NCBI RefSeq assembly: GCF_021496725.1 | Contig: NZ_CP051215.1 | Span: 496,001-560,000, forward strand | DNA: 64,000 bases | Source of the DNA: Spiroplasma platyhelix PALS-1 | GTDB lineage: Bacteria > Bacillota_I > Bacilli_A > Mycoplasmatales > VBWQ01 | Direction: 5' to 3' | Shown here: piece after piece, positions 33,856-50,313 of the stretch | Numbering within the stretch: the first letter of the stretch is position 1 | Layout: each line of letters starts with the position of its first letter | Translations under genes and position numbers: made by a program | Notes under the pieces: model-generated | The model's input: only the letters and a program-made list of their open reading frames with translations | The model's database searches: none | Told to the model about the DNA's origin: nothing

Positions 33856-34869
33856 CTAACCAAATTTATCTTTGATTGTTTCATTAATCCAATTAAGAAT
33901 CTCAGTCACTTTTTCATACTCTAATCTTTTTGGACCAACTACGGCAATTTGACCTTGATCACTATCATGAATTTTAAATGTTGTTGTGATCATTGCCATA
34001 TTGTTATTTGCTTCGCCTAATTCTTCACCAATCTTCACTTGAACATTTTGTTGTTGATTTAATTTATCAAAATAAGTTCAAGGTGATTGTGATTCAATAA
34101 AGTTTAATAGCGTTTTTACTTTTTTAATATCATTAAACTCAGGATTTTCTAACATATATTGCACACCATGAGTTGAAGACAATGGCTTAGAAAAATTAAT
34201 TAAAGCGTTAATAAAACCTTGTATGATATATTCGGCTTGCTTAACTTGCTTAGAAAGAATTGGTTTCAATAGTGTTACTTTTTCACTCATCTCACTAATT
34301 CTTGTTCCAATCAATCTTTGATTAAAGATATCTGTTGCTAAAGTTAAGTCTTGTAAAGAAGCTTCTTTAATATTGAAAATCTTATTCTCAACATGACCAT
34401 TATCAGTAATAATAATTGCTAGTACACTATCACTATTAAGTGATAGTAATTCAATTCTTTTTAGTGTATCTTCTTTAACACTCGGGCCAACAACAATACT
34501 AATTAATTTTGTCATTTCACTTAGAATGTTACTTGTTTGTTCAATAATTTCATTAACTTCTAAGTCTCTAGTATTAAAAATTTCTTCAATTCTTTTTTTT
34601 AAGATTAAGACATCAGTTTGATCACTTTGTGTCATTAACTTATCAACATAGTAACGATAACCTTTAGTTGCTGGAACTCTGCCACTAGAACTATGAGTTT
34701 TTTCTAATAGACCTTGAGTTTCTAATTCAACACATTCATTACGAACTGTTGCACTAGAACAATTAAGATCGTCAGTTGTTAAAATTGTTTTACTACCAAC
34801 AGGAACGCCAGTTTTAATATATTGTTCAACAATTATTTTTAAAATTTGCTCTTGTCTTTTTGTCAACAT
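33856..34869 (-). CDS. hrcA: Heat-inducible transcription repressor HrcA
   Basis: This 337-residue repressor binds CIRCE operators and is kept active by GroEL in bacteria that have it. The N-terminal winged helix holds MLTKRQEQILKIIVEQYIKTG and SSATVRNECVELE; the GAF-like domain and the C-terminal segment GPKRLEYEKV complete the family pattern. A TGA Trp joins the segments near 34077. Shine-Dalgarno GGAGGTG, 5 bases from ATG 34869. A CIRCE lies just upstream, so the operon is autoregulated. No groEL is in the window. Confidence 0.97.
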
Positions 34870-37144: not shown

Positions 37145-37186
37145 ATTATAGCACTAAAATTAGCAGTTGCAAGATATGATTGCTAA
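37145..37186 (-). promoter_or_regulatory. CIRCE-like operator and promoter of clpB
   Basis: Minus-strand TTAGCAATC (37178-37186), nine bases, AACTGCTAA (37160-37168) matches the CIRCE arms TTAGCACTC/GAGTGCTAA at 15 of 18 positions. TTGCAA (37167-37172) and an extended TATAAT (37145-37150, preceded by TGC) are 16 bases apart. The geometry is the same as at hrcA. Confidence 0.8.
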
Positions 37187-37272: not shown

Positions 37273-38832
37273 ATGCGGTATATGCATTTAAAAAATTATA
37301 GATCAATACAAAATTCTGAATTTCTTTTTAGTAGTATAAATTTTCTAATAGGAGATAATAATACTGGAAAAACTTCTATATTAAAATTTATTGAAAGTCT
37401 TTATAAAAATGAAACTCTTAATTTTAATAAGACATATTTAGCAGACTATTCTATTAATGAATTAAAATTAAATAAAACAAAACCCATTCAAGTTTTATAT
37501 GCAGGTTGACAACAAACAAATAAAGAAAATACTAAGAAAGAACTTATATTTGAATATCTTGAAATAAATAAAATTAATAATTCTAAAGATGATGTTGAAC
37601 CAATAATAACAAAAATTGTGACTCTAAACCCAAAATTAGAAATTTGCGTTTTTAATTTAAAATATAATAAATTTAAAAATTCTAGAAGAAAATTTCTTTC
37701 TGAGATTGAATCATATACTACTAAAAATATTTTTGAAGATATAACTGAGTTTAAAGAAAATTTAAATTTATGTGATAAATTAAATAAGCATATAAATAAT
37801 AAAGTTAATATAATAGAAAAATTTGAAACACTTACTTTCACTGAAGAATATATAACCTCATTATCTGAAAAAATGTTCCAAATTCAAAAAGAATATGCAA
37901 CATTAGCAAAAGATGTTGATCACTCTTCTAATGACAAAGAAAAAGAAATGAAAACAGAAAAAAATCTTGAAAATTTTTGATTAAAAAATGATAAAATATT
38001 ATTAGAATATAACTTTTTTTCAAGATCAGCAAGTTTTTTAGATATTAGTTTACTTTATTCTTATTTTTTAAGATATATATCTAAAGATAAAAATGAAATA
38101 AATAATCATCAATTTTATAGAATGCGTGGTAATACAAGATTTTTTGAGTATCCTTATGAAACAAAATATGTAAATCCTATACGAAAATTATTTAAAAAAT
38201 TTTATTCTGGTAATGAAAAAATTTCAGATGAAAGTTCTTTTGAAATATTTGAAAAAAATACAGCTTTATCTAAAGAAATAAATAATTTTTTCAAAGAATC
38301 TAAAATGCTTGATGAAATTACTATAGAAGATAATGAAATTATTGGTACAAGAATCATTGTTCCTAAATATAAAAAAAATAAAAAAGAAATGAATCTTTAT
38401 ATATCAGGTACTGGAGTTTCTCAAGTTTTACCAATATTAATCAATATTTTTCAAAGAAAAACAGATAAAATTTTTATAGAACAACCTGAAATACATTTGC
38501 ATCCTAGAGCTCAATCTTCTTTAGGAACATTGTTTTTTAAATTTTTTTCTAATGCATTAGAAAAAAATTTAAATGAATCAAGATTTTTAAAACAAGGTTT
38601 TATAGAAACCCATTCTATGTTTTTAATAAATAATTTTAGATATAATATTTTTGCAAATTCAAAAAAAATAAAACAATATGAATCACCTGTAATTTGATTT
38701 TTTGAAAATTTAAATGATAAAACTAAAATTTATAATATTTTAATAAATGAATCTGGAAAATATGTTGGTAAGTCAAATAAAATTAATGATTTCTTTATTG
38801 AAGAATCTATAAAAATTTTAAAGATTAAATAA
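37273..38832 (+). CDS. AAA ATPase of the OLD/DUF3696-like type
   Basis: This 519-residue SMC/ABC-like ATPase resembles those of bacterial defence systems. Walker A GDNNTGKTS (27-35) follows an N-terminus MRYMHLKNYRSIQNSEF that matches this family's LKNFRSI start. A long insert with charged coiled-coil character lies at about 90-240. Then come a signature-like ISGTGVSQVLPILI (about 375), Walker B in FIEQPEIHLHPRAQ (Glu near 403) and an ETHS segment near 445. The EQPEIHLHP...ETHS spacing is typical of DUF3696/AAA_15-type ATPases. Several Trp are TGA. It is more AT-rich than its neighbours. The PIN gene begins 10 bases after the stop, so the two form one unit. The cellular role is inferred. Confidence 0.85.
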
Positions 38833-38842
38833 TAGAATAATA

Positions 38843-39346
38843 ATGAAAAATACTGAAGTAACAAATTTAATATTTGACACAAATATTTTGATACAATATT
38901 TAGAAAAAACAAAAAATCCAGTAATATCACAAAAATTAAATGATTTTTTACAATTTGGAGGTTTACATTATACAATTATTTTTGGTGGTAAAACTATGAT
39001 TAAAGAGCTTACTTGTAATAAACAAAATACAAGTTTACTAGATCTATTGCTTTATTCCACAAGTAATGCTACTTCACCCAAAATAGATATCAAAGATGAT
39101 GAAAAAATGAACTTAGAAATTGATATATTTGCCAAAAAAGAAAAGCTAAATAAACGCGGAACAGATGCAGGAATTATATTTATTTCGTATAAATGTTGTG
39201 TAAAAATTCTATTTACTGACGACAAAAAACTCAAAAATAAAATTGTATCAAATCGTTTTTCTTATTTAAATCAAAACTGACTCCCAATTATTCATAATTC
39301 TAATGACATTTTAAACAAAATTAAAACTAATGACATTCTATTTTAA
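38843..39346 (+). CDS. PIN-domain ribonuclease-like partner of the ATPase
   Basis: This 167-residue protein has a PIN-domain pattern with four acidic positions: Asp12 in IFDTNIL, Glu55 in MIKEL, Asp108 in GTDAG and Asp126/127 in LFTDDKKL. That arrangement is the metal-binding quartet of PIN RNases such as VapC. It is not next to a VapB-like antitoxin; instead it sits 10 bases behind the AAA ATPase, so it is more likely the effector of that ATPase. Read through a TGA Trp near 39281. No Shine-Dalgarno is obvious, so translation may be coupled. RNA cleavage is inferred from the motifs. Confidence 0.75.
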
Positions 39347-39555: not shown

Positions 39556-39584
39556 TTGACTTCTCCACTTTATTAATGTAAGAT
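39556..39584 (+). promoter_or_regulatory. Promoter of the DEAD-box helicase with long leader
   Basis: TTGACT (39556-39561), 17-base spacer, TAAGAT (39579-39584). Transcription from here would give a leader of about 220 bases. In it TTTTCTTTAA (39767-39776) pairs with TTAAAGAAAA (39794-39803), ending next to the Shine-Dalgarno AAGGAG (39804-39809). ATTTACAA and TTGTAAAT (near 39603 and 39639) form another stem. Confidence 0.6.
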
Positions 39585-39814
39585 TAGAGAGTTGTTTTTT
39601 AATTTACAATTTTCTTTACTTTGAAAAGAAATGATTAAGTTTGTAAATGAAAAAGTTTTACAAATAAAAATTATTCTACGACCGTTTTAAAGAAAATTGA
39701 TCTTAAATTAAATCCGTTAAGAACTAAAAATTTCAATTAGATAATGATTTTTTTTCATATGCTAAATTTTCTTTAAATTAAAAATTTATTTTATTAAAGA
39801 AAAAAGGAGAACAT

Positions 39815-41237: not shown

Positions 41238-41291
41238 AAAGCACCTTATTTACATAAATATTATGATATATTTATTGATAAGGTGCTTTTT
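41238..41291 (+). terminator. Long hairpin terminator overlapping the next Shine-Dalgarno
   Basis: 12-bp outer arms (41238-41249, 41278-41289), core GCACCTTAT/ATAAGGTGC, and an inner 8-bp stem (ATAAATAT 41254-41261, ATATTTAT 41268-41275). Ts follow. The right arm contains AAGGTG, the only Shine-Dalgarno for the gene starting at 41295. Confidence 0.75.
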
Positions 41292-41294
41292 AAT

Positions 41295-41768
41295 ATGAAC
41301 AATGAAGTGTTACAAAAAATTTTAGCTAAAAAAGAAATAACTATAACTGACAAAATAATTTTTAGAACTATTTTTGATGTTTTAAGTGCACTTTTTACTG
41401 ATGAAAACCATATATCATCATTAAAATCTGGTTACAAAATAAATGATCAACAACAAATTTGATTTCCAAACATTACCCCCGATCATCAAAAAGAATTAAA
41501 TATCAAAAAAGGCTACGCAAATTATATGTCAAAAAATTGAGATTATATTTATCAATTTGATGGTACTAAAGATATTGAAAAAAGAAAAAAATTAGGTAAA
41601 AAGCTTATTGAAGATAAAATTCAATTAATTACTTTTGCAAAACTAAATGAAAAAGCAAAAGGAATAGGCTACCACTTTGTTGGAGTCTTTGCTTTTAATG
41701 GTTATCTAGAAGATGACTGCAAAACTATGATTTATAAAAAAATTAGCGATAGTTTCTATTTGTTCTAA
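41295..41768 (+). CDS. Unknown 157-residue protein
   Basis: I cannot assign this protein firmly. It has no signal or membrane segment, reads two TGA as Trp, and ends with GIGYHFVGVFAFNGYLEDD...YKKISDSF. A YxFxGVFxF pattern followed by a KRISD-like end is seen in PUA/SRA-like or DUF3427-type reader domains attached to restriction proteins; that is recall of a pattern, not a verified match. The start ATG 41295 lies six bases after the helicase terminator, whose stem holds its Shine-Dalgarno, so it may be translated only on read-through transcripts or be regulated by the hairpin. Confidence 0.65.
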
Positions 41769-49330: not shown

Positions 49331-49825
49331 ATGAAAAAAGAAAAAATAGAAACACAAAACAAATTGTTTTCTATAACAAGTTATCTAATTCAAGAACATA
49401 AAATCACTGAGCCAGTTAAACTTCAAAAAATACTATATTTTCTATATTTAGAATATTTAAAAGAAACTAATGAAAAACTTTTTGATGATGAATTTGAAGC
49501 TTGAGTTTATGGTCCTGTATTAAGAAGTGTGTATAATCATTTAAAATATGTAGGATTAAATTTTAATGAATACGAAAGTTTTGATTCTGCAAAAGACAAA
49601 TATACTTTAACTAAAAACACTCCTTTAAAAGATAAAAAAATCTCTGATTTTATCGACAAAAAAATTAAAAAATACAAAAATAAAAATACTTTTGATTTAG
49701 TTGATGAAGCCCACAAAACTCAACCTTGAATTAAGGCTAGAAAGGGCTTAGCAAATAGTCAAATATCAACTGAAATAATAAAATTTAAAGATATAGAAAT
49801 TTTTGTTAAGACATGAAAGCCTTAA
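49331..49825 (+). CDS. Panacea-domain (DUF4065) antitoxin
   Basis: This 164-residue protein carries the Panacea domain: VKLQKILYFLYLEYL (29-43), FDDEFEAWVYGPVLRSVYNHLK (51-72) and later LVDEAHKTQPW. The LQKxLYF and FxAWxYGPVxxxVY patterns are diagnostic of DUF4065, the antitoxin domain of the PanAT toxin-antitoxin systems and of SocA and GepA-like proteins. TGA Trp codons occur. It overlaps the next gene by 13 bases, a common feature of toxin-antitoxin pairs. Recognition is by established family pattern; neutralising activity is inferred. Confidence 0.88.
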
Positions 49826-50313
49826 TTGATTTTAGTTTATTTCAATATAAATGTATAAAATCTAACAAAGGCAGTGAAATTTTTACTTATAAAACTGATG
49901 AAAATTCAGTTAAAAAAATTAATCAAGAACTTTTTGATTTCTTAAAACAAATTAGTGAAACTAATACTATCTTGAAAACTTTATTTAATAAAAAAAATGA
50001 CCATGAAGTTAAGTCATTAGAAAAAAGAAATCTTATCATCGACATATTTAAAGATTTTGGTTATAAAGACGAATTTATTGATCAAAAAATTGGTAATGCT
50101 TCTATCTATCAAACAAAAACTAAAAGCGAAAGAAGATTATTTTTTATTCTTGAAAATAAAGAAATAACCAAGAAAGAAAAAATAATAATTATAAAACCAT
50201 TATTTTTAGATATAAATCATGTAATTTATAATAATCCTCGTTTTCAAAAAATTTTTAATACTTGTTTAATTTGTTGAAAAACTAAATGTACTAATGAAAA
50301 AGTAGCAGACTAA
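49813..50313 (+). CDS. Unrecognised partner of the Panacea antitoxin (candidate toxin)
   Basis: This gene encodes 166 residues and starts at ATG 49813 inside the end of the Panacea gene. It is Lys, Asn, Ile and Phe-rich, with no membrane helix. Segments that might matter are KSERRLFFILENKE and the following IIIKPLFLDINHVIYNN, which has a His/Asp-containing loop between predicted strands. A Cys-containing tail (CLICW, CTNE) ends it. I do not recognise the family. Position and overlap suggest the toxin of a PanAT pair; Panacea toxins are very diverse. The stop overlaps that of the convergent decarboxylase gene by two bases. Confidence 0.7.

Follow-up and report, generated by a model that had tools for sequence, protein, structure and literature searches.

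Two adjacent genes of Spiroplasma platyhelix PALS-1, lying at positions 37,273 to 39,346 of the window (the whole stretch of DNA analysed, 64,000 nucleotides of contig NZ_CP051215.1), probably constitute a mobile, HEC-03-related two-gene module directed against invading elements, in which an ATPase would restrain a PIN RNase until an invader is sensed, with an abortive outcome. Support for such a module comes from the recurrent adjacency of the two genes, the invariance of the catalytic residues, a patchy distribution, variable loci, and the defence genes that neighbour the pair in one other Mollicute genome (G032). A preliminary description of the region had proposed an ATPase sensor coupled to a PIN effector, and this is the best-supported reading, although we infer both the PIN fold and the defence function. 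The features of the region, in window coordinates, are as follows:

37160..37186, no strand: CIRCE-like inverted repeat (TTAGCAGTTGCAAGATATGATTGCTAA), read directly, ahead of clpB, which runs divergently; forms the left edge of a variable interval
37273..38832, + strand: ABC/OLD-type ATPase, putative sensor, 519 aa
38843..39346, + strand: PIN-like nuclease, putative effector, 167 aa
39489..39519, + strand: hairpin and T run (53-nt fold), probable transcription terminator closing the operon
39556..39814, + strand: promoter and conserved leader of a deaD-type helicase gene; right border, outside the pair

When read under genetic code 4, the 519-aa ATPase and its 167-aa partner are both encoded on the + strand with a 10-base gap between them, and the open reading frames, coordinates, gap and lengths are all as first described. 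The pair is also more AT-rich than its neighbours, as had been claimed: with a GC content of 19.2% the ATPase gene is the lowest of the 51 window genes and the PIN gene, at 22.8%, is the third lowest, against a window mean of 29.3%. Because the upstream clpB gene runs divergently, the pair requires a promoter of its own, and to this extent the earlier proposal of one stands, but the best consensus match upstream of the pair reaches just 9/12, and the region contains 40 promoter-like sites, not many more than the 26.5 +/- 4.6 of shuffled sequence. The probable terminator has a 53-nt fold of -13.5 kcal/mol (z -4.5), and is absent from the list returned by the consensus scan. We also note the segment 39330-39475 (+ strand), in which the top promoter-like site of the region (ATGACA-17-TATAAT with TG, 11/12) falls where the PIN gene ends; a Shine-Dalgarno-like sequence and an open reading frame of 30 aa (MNSNIYIINEKNDIEIIPEKEKDFLQLLKY) come after it, ahead of the terminator.

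The upstream product has the motifs of an ABC/OLD-type ATPase: a Walker A motif (GDNNTGKTS, residue 27, window 37351-37377), an ABC signature (SGTGVSQ, residue 378, 38404-38424), a Walker B motif (IFIEQPEIHLHP, residue 400, 38470-38505) and a switch histidine (ETHS, residue 445, 38605-38616). GDNNTGKTS, an EQPEIHLHP segment and ETHS had been recognized previously, and the signature can now be added to them. Pfam matches are to AAA_15 (E 6e-16) and AAA_21 (E 9e-11), and the protein is placed in the OLD/GajA superfamily. The original label of DUF3696/OLD-like survives in part: the Pfam DUF3696 domain is unmatched in the window ATPase, but its nearest plasmid relatives are so named and its head is of the OLD type. 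Pfam reveals no Toprim domain in the ATPase, and only 71 residues remain past ETHS. The PADLOC models AriA, NsnB, HEC-03B and PDC-M55A are matched by the ATPase in all four of the intact copies that we have found, which range across all copies from 475 to 561 aa in length. For the window ATPase the top PADLOC match is NsnB (E 1.5e-22); it also matches AriA (E 1e-16, and down to 3e-29 among the homologues) and HEC-03B (E 3.6e-14), the last with partial coverage and its best stretch at residues 342-512.

The downstream gene product carries the motifs D12-x-N14 (DTN), E55, D108 and T125-x-D127 (TxD), and the acidic quartet D12, E55, D108 and D127 (codons at 38876, 39005, 39164 and 39221) is invariant in the four intact partner copies; the quartet noted earlier is thus present, with D127 and not D126 as the fourth acid. 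Searches of the protein against Pfam, PADLOC and PDB give no significant sequence match: PADLOC yields nothing at E values up to 1, and PDB searches with PIN profiles return chance matches only. The sole Pfam matches of two family members are nonetheless PIN models, below the cut-off (PIN_3 at E 0.053 across the whole domain, and PIN at E 0.21). Alignment by hhalign to two single PIN domains of other Bacillota scores above 100 of 100 shuffles, with the alignments in register at one end, either DTN or D...TxD, and a single-sequence AlphaFold prediction (pLDDT 33) provides no usable model. From these comparisons we regard the partner as a PIN protein with good but not complete confidence.

The ATPase or a remnant of it occurs patchily, in seven of 298 genomes of the order. 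Intact adjacent pairs are present in the window genome and in G032, G084 and G087, which represent four genera, and in each of them the ATPase gene comes first with the partner starting within about ten bases. Identity to the window proteins among the other intact copies is 32-37% for the ATPase and 26-33% for the partner. In G041 and G176 frameshifts and stops disrupt the two genes, the open pieces of which retain N-terminal DTN/DTC and C-terminal D...TxD-like motifs, and G005 has only an ATPase remnant. The scan of Mollicutes for the adjacent pair that the preliminary description suggested thus recovers it intact in three other genomes and frameshifted in two, at differing loci, and these homologous adjacent pairs in three other genomes confirm that the adjacency exceeds chance. 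An intact PIN partner is found in three of the 60 genomes of G087's family, and the window's own genus has the pair in one of three sampled genomes; that it might be core and syntenic in all Spiroplasma, the contrary outcome named at the outset, is contradicted by its rarity and its variable loci. Genome contigs scanned for the PIN protein and for the ATPase alignment gave no match, with the caveat that TGA may be taken as a stop in the tblastn confirmation. Viral contigs gave weak ATPase matches and no PIN, and searches of plasmids and phages with the PIN proteins found none. In a Bacillota-wide search with the ATPase profile the best match beyond the Mollicute copies has an E value of 1.6e-8; the non-Mollicute loci inspected as candidate pairs were RecF and other ATPases with no adjoining PIN-like gene, and were rejected.

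This distribution bears on whether the genes might instead have a housekeeping or other non-defence role, in RNA or DNA maintenance, and occupy a variable site by chance. The ferritin-like gene that adjoins the G084 pair would be in keeping with such a role, but we consider it highly improbable: the pair was not found in about 97% of the sampled genomes of the order, it has decayed in three carriers, two sampled congeners are without it, and within the window no gene has a lower GC content than that of the ATPase.

The pair sits within an interval between clpB and deaD that is variable within the genus and has sharp borders: on the left the promoter side of clpB, which includes the CIRCE-like repeat, and on the right the promoter and leader of deaD. 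Two congeners, G025 and G031, keep these borders and lack the pair; both have a similar CIRCE-like repeat upstream of clpB, and an hrcA-like gene is present in the window at 33856-34869. In G025 the interval spans about 11.8 kb and contains the gene of a 1067-aa SF1 helicase along with others of lipoprotein-like and membrane-protein-like type, and in G031 it holds a single DNA-alkylation-repair/HEAT-like gene. The G025 helicase (L051 12752-15955) contains a REase_MTES_1575 domain and matches PADLOC PDC-S37 (E 1.5e-77). The deaD-type leader itself (39590-39814, about 225 nt) is 83-84% identical in the two congeners with long invariant blocks; it has no Rfam match and folds weakly (z -1.3), and is possibly a cold-shock or autoregulatory leader. 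Two further loci of the window deserve mention. Just downstream of deaD, 41283-41768 (+ strand) encodes a solitary SRA domain protein of 161 aa (PF18491, E 6e-43). It matches the PADLOC model mREase_II in its C-terminal part and is probably what remains of a modification-dependent restriction enzyme. At 49331-50313 (+ strand) there is a SocA/Panacea-type antitoxin (PF13274, E 4e-19) overlapping the gene of a 166-aa protein with 20% GC, a candidate Panacea toxin-antitoxin pair.

Elsewhere in the order, the G032 pair follows infB and has directly 3' of it a Schlafen-group-3 helicase gene (PF09848, E 3e-100; PADLOC PDC-S41 and AbiO), with an AbiH gene (Pfam E 2e-8) about 4.5 kb upstream; G032 is alone among the other loci in having clear defence genes beside the pair. 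Together with the pair, AbiH and the helicase (L018 1195-2313 and 8914-10803) make up a small Mollicute defence cluster. Virus-derived genes were suspected near the G041 remnant and conjugative-element genes near the G087 and G176 loci, but Pfam and PHROGs confirmed none of these save for a transposase-like HTH in G176. Identity between the window and G041 ATPases is 43% in the part that matches, compared with 78% for the ClpB proteins of these two genomes, a gap that fast evolution and separate acquisition would both explain.

The preliminary description could match an AAA/PIN pair of this exact form to no named system, but PADLOC's candidate HEC-03, composed of a PIN-like HEC-03A and a DUF3696 ATPase, HEC-03B, already has this architecture. 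HEC stands for Hma-embedded candidate, a term from a 2024 preprint by Payne et al. as cited in PMC11411939, which mentions HEC-05 and HEC-06; several HECs including HEC-06 are active according to PMC12988326, and HEC-03 is merely listed in one survey (PMC13356809). The literature searched holds no experimental work on HEC-03, and the HECs that it names as tested are others (HEC-05 and HEC-06).

A tblastn search of plasmids with the G032 ATPase retrieves mostly DUF3696 ATPases, from Aeromonas, Azotobacter and Pantoea. On plasmids of five genera (Aeromonas, Azotobacter, Acinetobacter, Tistrella and Rhodococcus) the ATPase gene is adjoined or overlapped by one of about 170-177 codons that carries the motifs IDTN...E...D..D. 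The order is ATPase then PIN, and in four of these five genera, Acinetobacter being the exception, a gene annotated as an RNA ligase comes next (PF09414, E 2e-33, tested for Aeromonas). This arrangement of HEC-03-type ATPase and PIN genes with an RNA ligase gene after them was noted at the following plasmid positions:

L084 4386-5624
L085 4386-5617
L087 3977-5193
L088 4001-5181

The small plasmid proteins of Aeromonas and Azotobacter match PADLOC HEC-03A (E 2e-24 and 9e-28, respectively), and the Aeromonas ATPase is HEC-03B (E 7e-134). The Mollicute and HEC-03-type ATPases align by hhalign with an E value of 1.9e-18 over 209 columns and by blastp at 4e-14. The relationship of the small proteins is more distant. 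The HEC-03A HMM leaves the Mollicute partner unmatched, and a HEC-03A profile run across 324 Bacillota gives one marginal match; an hhalign comparison of the Mollicute PIN with five HEC-03A relatives yields an E value of 0.001 and a score of 28.6, where the highest of 200 column shuffles is 21.4, and this alignment spans the DTN, the glutamate and the subsequent hydrophobic stretch. PF09414 RNA ligases are absent from the G000, G032, G084 and G087 genomes, and were matched in control genomes.

The RNA ligase of the plasmid operons hints at RNA as the substrate, and at cleavage accompanied by repair. We have nevertheless considered a DNA-targeting complex, in which the OLD/SMC-like ATPase would load onto the ends of invading DNA and the PIN-like protein would nick it, in the manner of Gabija and OLD, which use Toprim. 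The superfamily placement of the ATPase and the match of its profile to the OLD-family protein 6p74 (E 3e-9) are consistent with such a complex, and PIN-fold FEN-like nucleases act on DNA, but the missing Toprim domain, the ligase beside the plasmid homologues of four genera, and the fact that small PIN proteins of such a type are usually RNases make it quite unlikely. PIN nucleases are also the classic toxins of toxin-antitoxin systems (VapC), a precedent for a stabilizing module in which the ATPase only restrains a PIN toxin and the pair, having no dedicated phage sensor, persists on mobile elements through addiction. The plasmid location of the relatives outside Mollicutes fits this, as do the frameshifted or partial copies in three Mollicutes, from which the pair appears readily lost. 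Yet ready loss argues against strong addiction, an ABC ATPase of 475-561 aa with all of its ATP-binding motifs kept would be a costly antitoxin for restraint alone, and its closest matches are the defence ATPases AriA and NsnB; we thus regard a purely stabilizing module as unlikely.

The invader-sensing module that we favour probably works like the well-studied PARIS system, in which AriB, a separate small RNase, is kept sequestered by AriA until AriA senses a phage protein and frees it to cut tRNA (PMC12409363); by analogy, the Mollicute ATPase would hold its PIN partner and release it upon sensing an invader. The ABC-type ATPase would oligomerize and bind the PIN protein, holding it inactive until a product of a phage or another invader is sensed; an ATP-driven rearrangement would then free or activate the PIN protein, which would cut RNA (tRNA or mRNA), stopping translation and aborting the infection. 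We infer the complex formation, the trigger, the RNA substrate and the abortive outcome. More tentatively, and with considerable doubt, HEC-03-type systems might represent an RNA-cutting branch of the AriA-like immune ATPases with a PIN RNase as effector and, in the plasmid versions, the ligase as a built-in enzyme for repair or reset, the Mollicute form being stripped of its repair arm and one of the few complete effector-immunity modules in near-minimal genomes.

The pair extends HEC-03, a catalogued but mechanistically unexplained candidate, to the Mollicutes, where the four diverged natural ATPase/PIN versions can be used to map essential residues, and an RNA target is suggested by the ligase that accompanies the plasmid operons. 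In addition, the clpB/deaD interval emerges as a place in a reduced genome where accessory genes turn over.

Among known systems, PARIS likewise joins an ABC ATPase, matched by the AriA model, to a small nuclease, and the hold-and-release logic is likely common to both, but its AriB effector is a Toprim/DUF4435 RNase whereas the Mollicute effector is PIN-like and has no match to AriB by Pfam or PADLOC. Menshen (NsnABC), in which a DUF262 gene accompanies a predicted OLD nuclease (PMC10952713), contributes the best-matching ATPase model in NsnB, but no DUF262 gene is present among the scanned neighbours of the Mollicute pairs. OLD and Gabija GajA share the OLD-type ATPase head and differ in that the Mollicute ATPase is without a C-terminal Toprim domain and has no adjoining UvrD-type GajB. 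VapBC-type PIN toxins share a PIN-like acidic quartet, but their small DNA-binding antitoxin gene is replaced in the Mollicute pair by an ATPase. The resemblance to HEC-03 encompasses the two-gene architecture and order, adjacency on one strand, homologous ATPases, and a partner of similar size with DTN..E..D..D motifs and a profile score above all shuffles. Against this, the Mollicute partner is missed by the HEC-03A HMM, the ATPase matches HEC-03B partly and scores higher to NsnB, and the RNA ligase, a third gene seen in the plasmid operons and not known as a PADLOC requirement, is missing both beside the Mollicute pair and in the genome. Judged on these comparisons, we would call the pair a HEC-03-like module rather than HEC-03: the architecture is already catalogued, and the Mollicute form is most likely a diverged, ligase-less relative of that candidate system.
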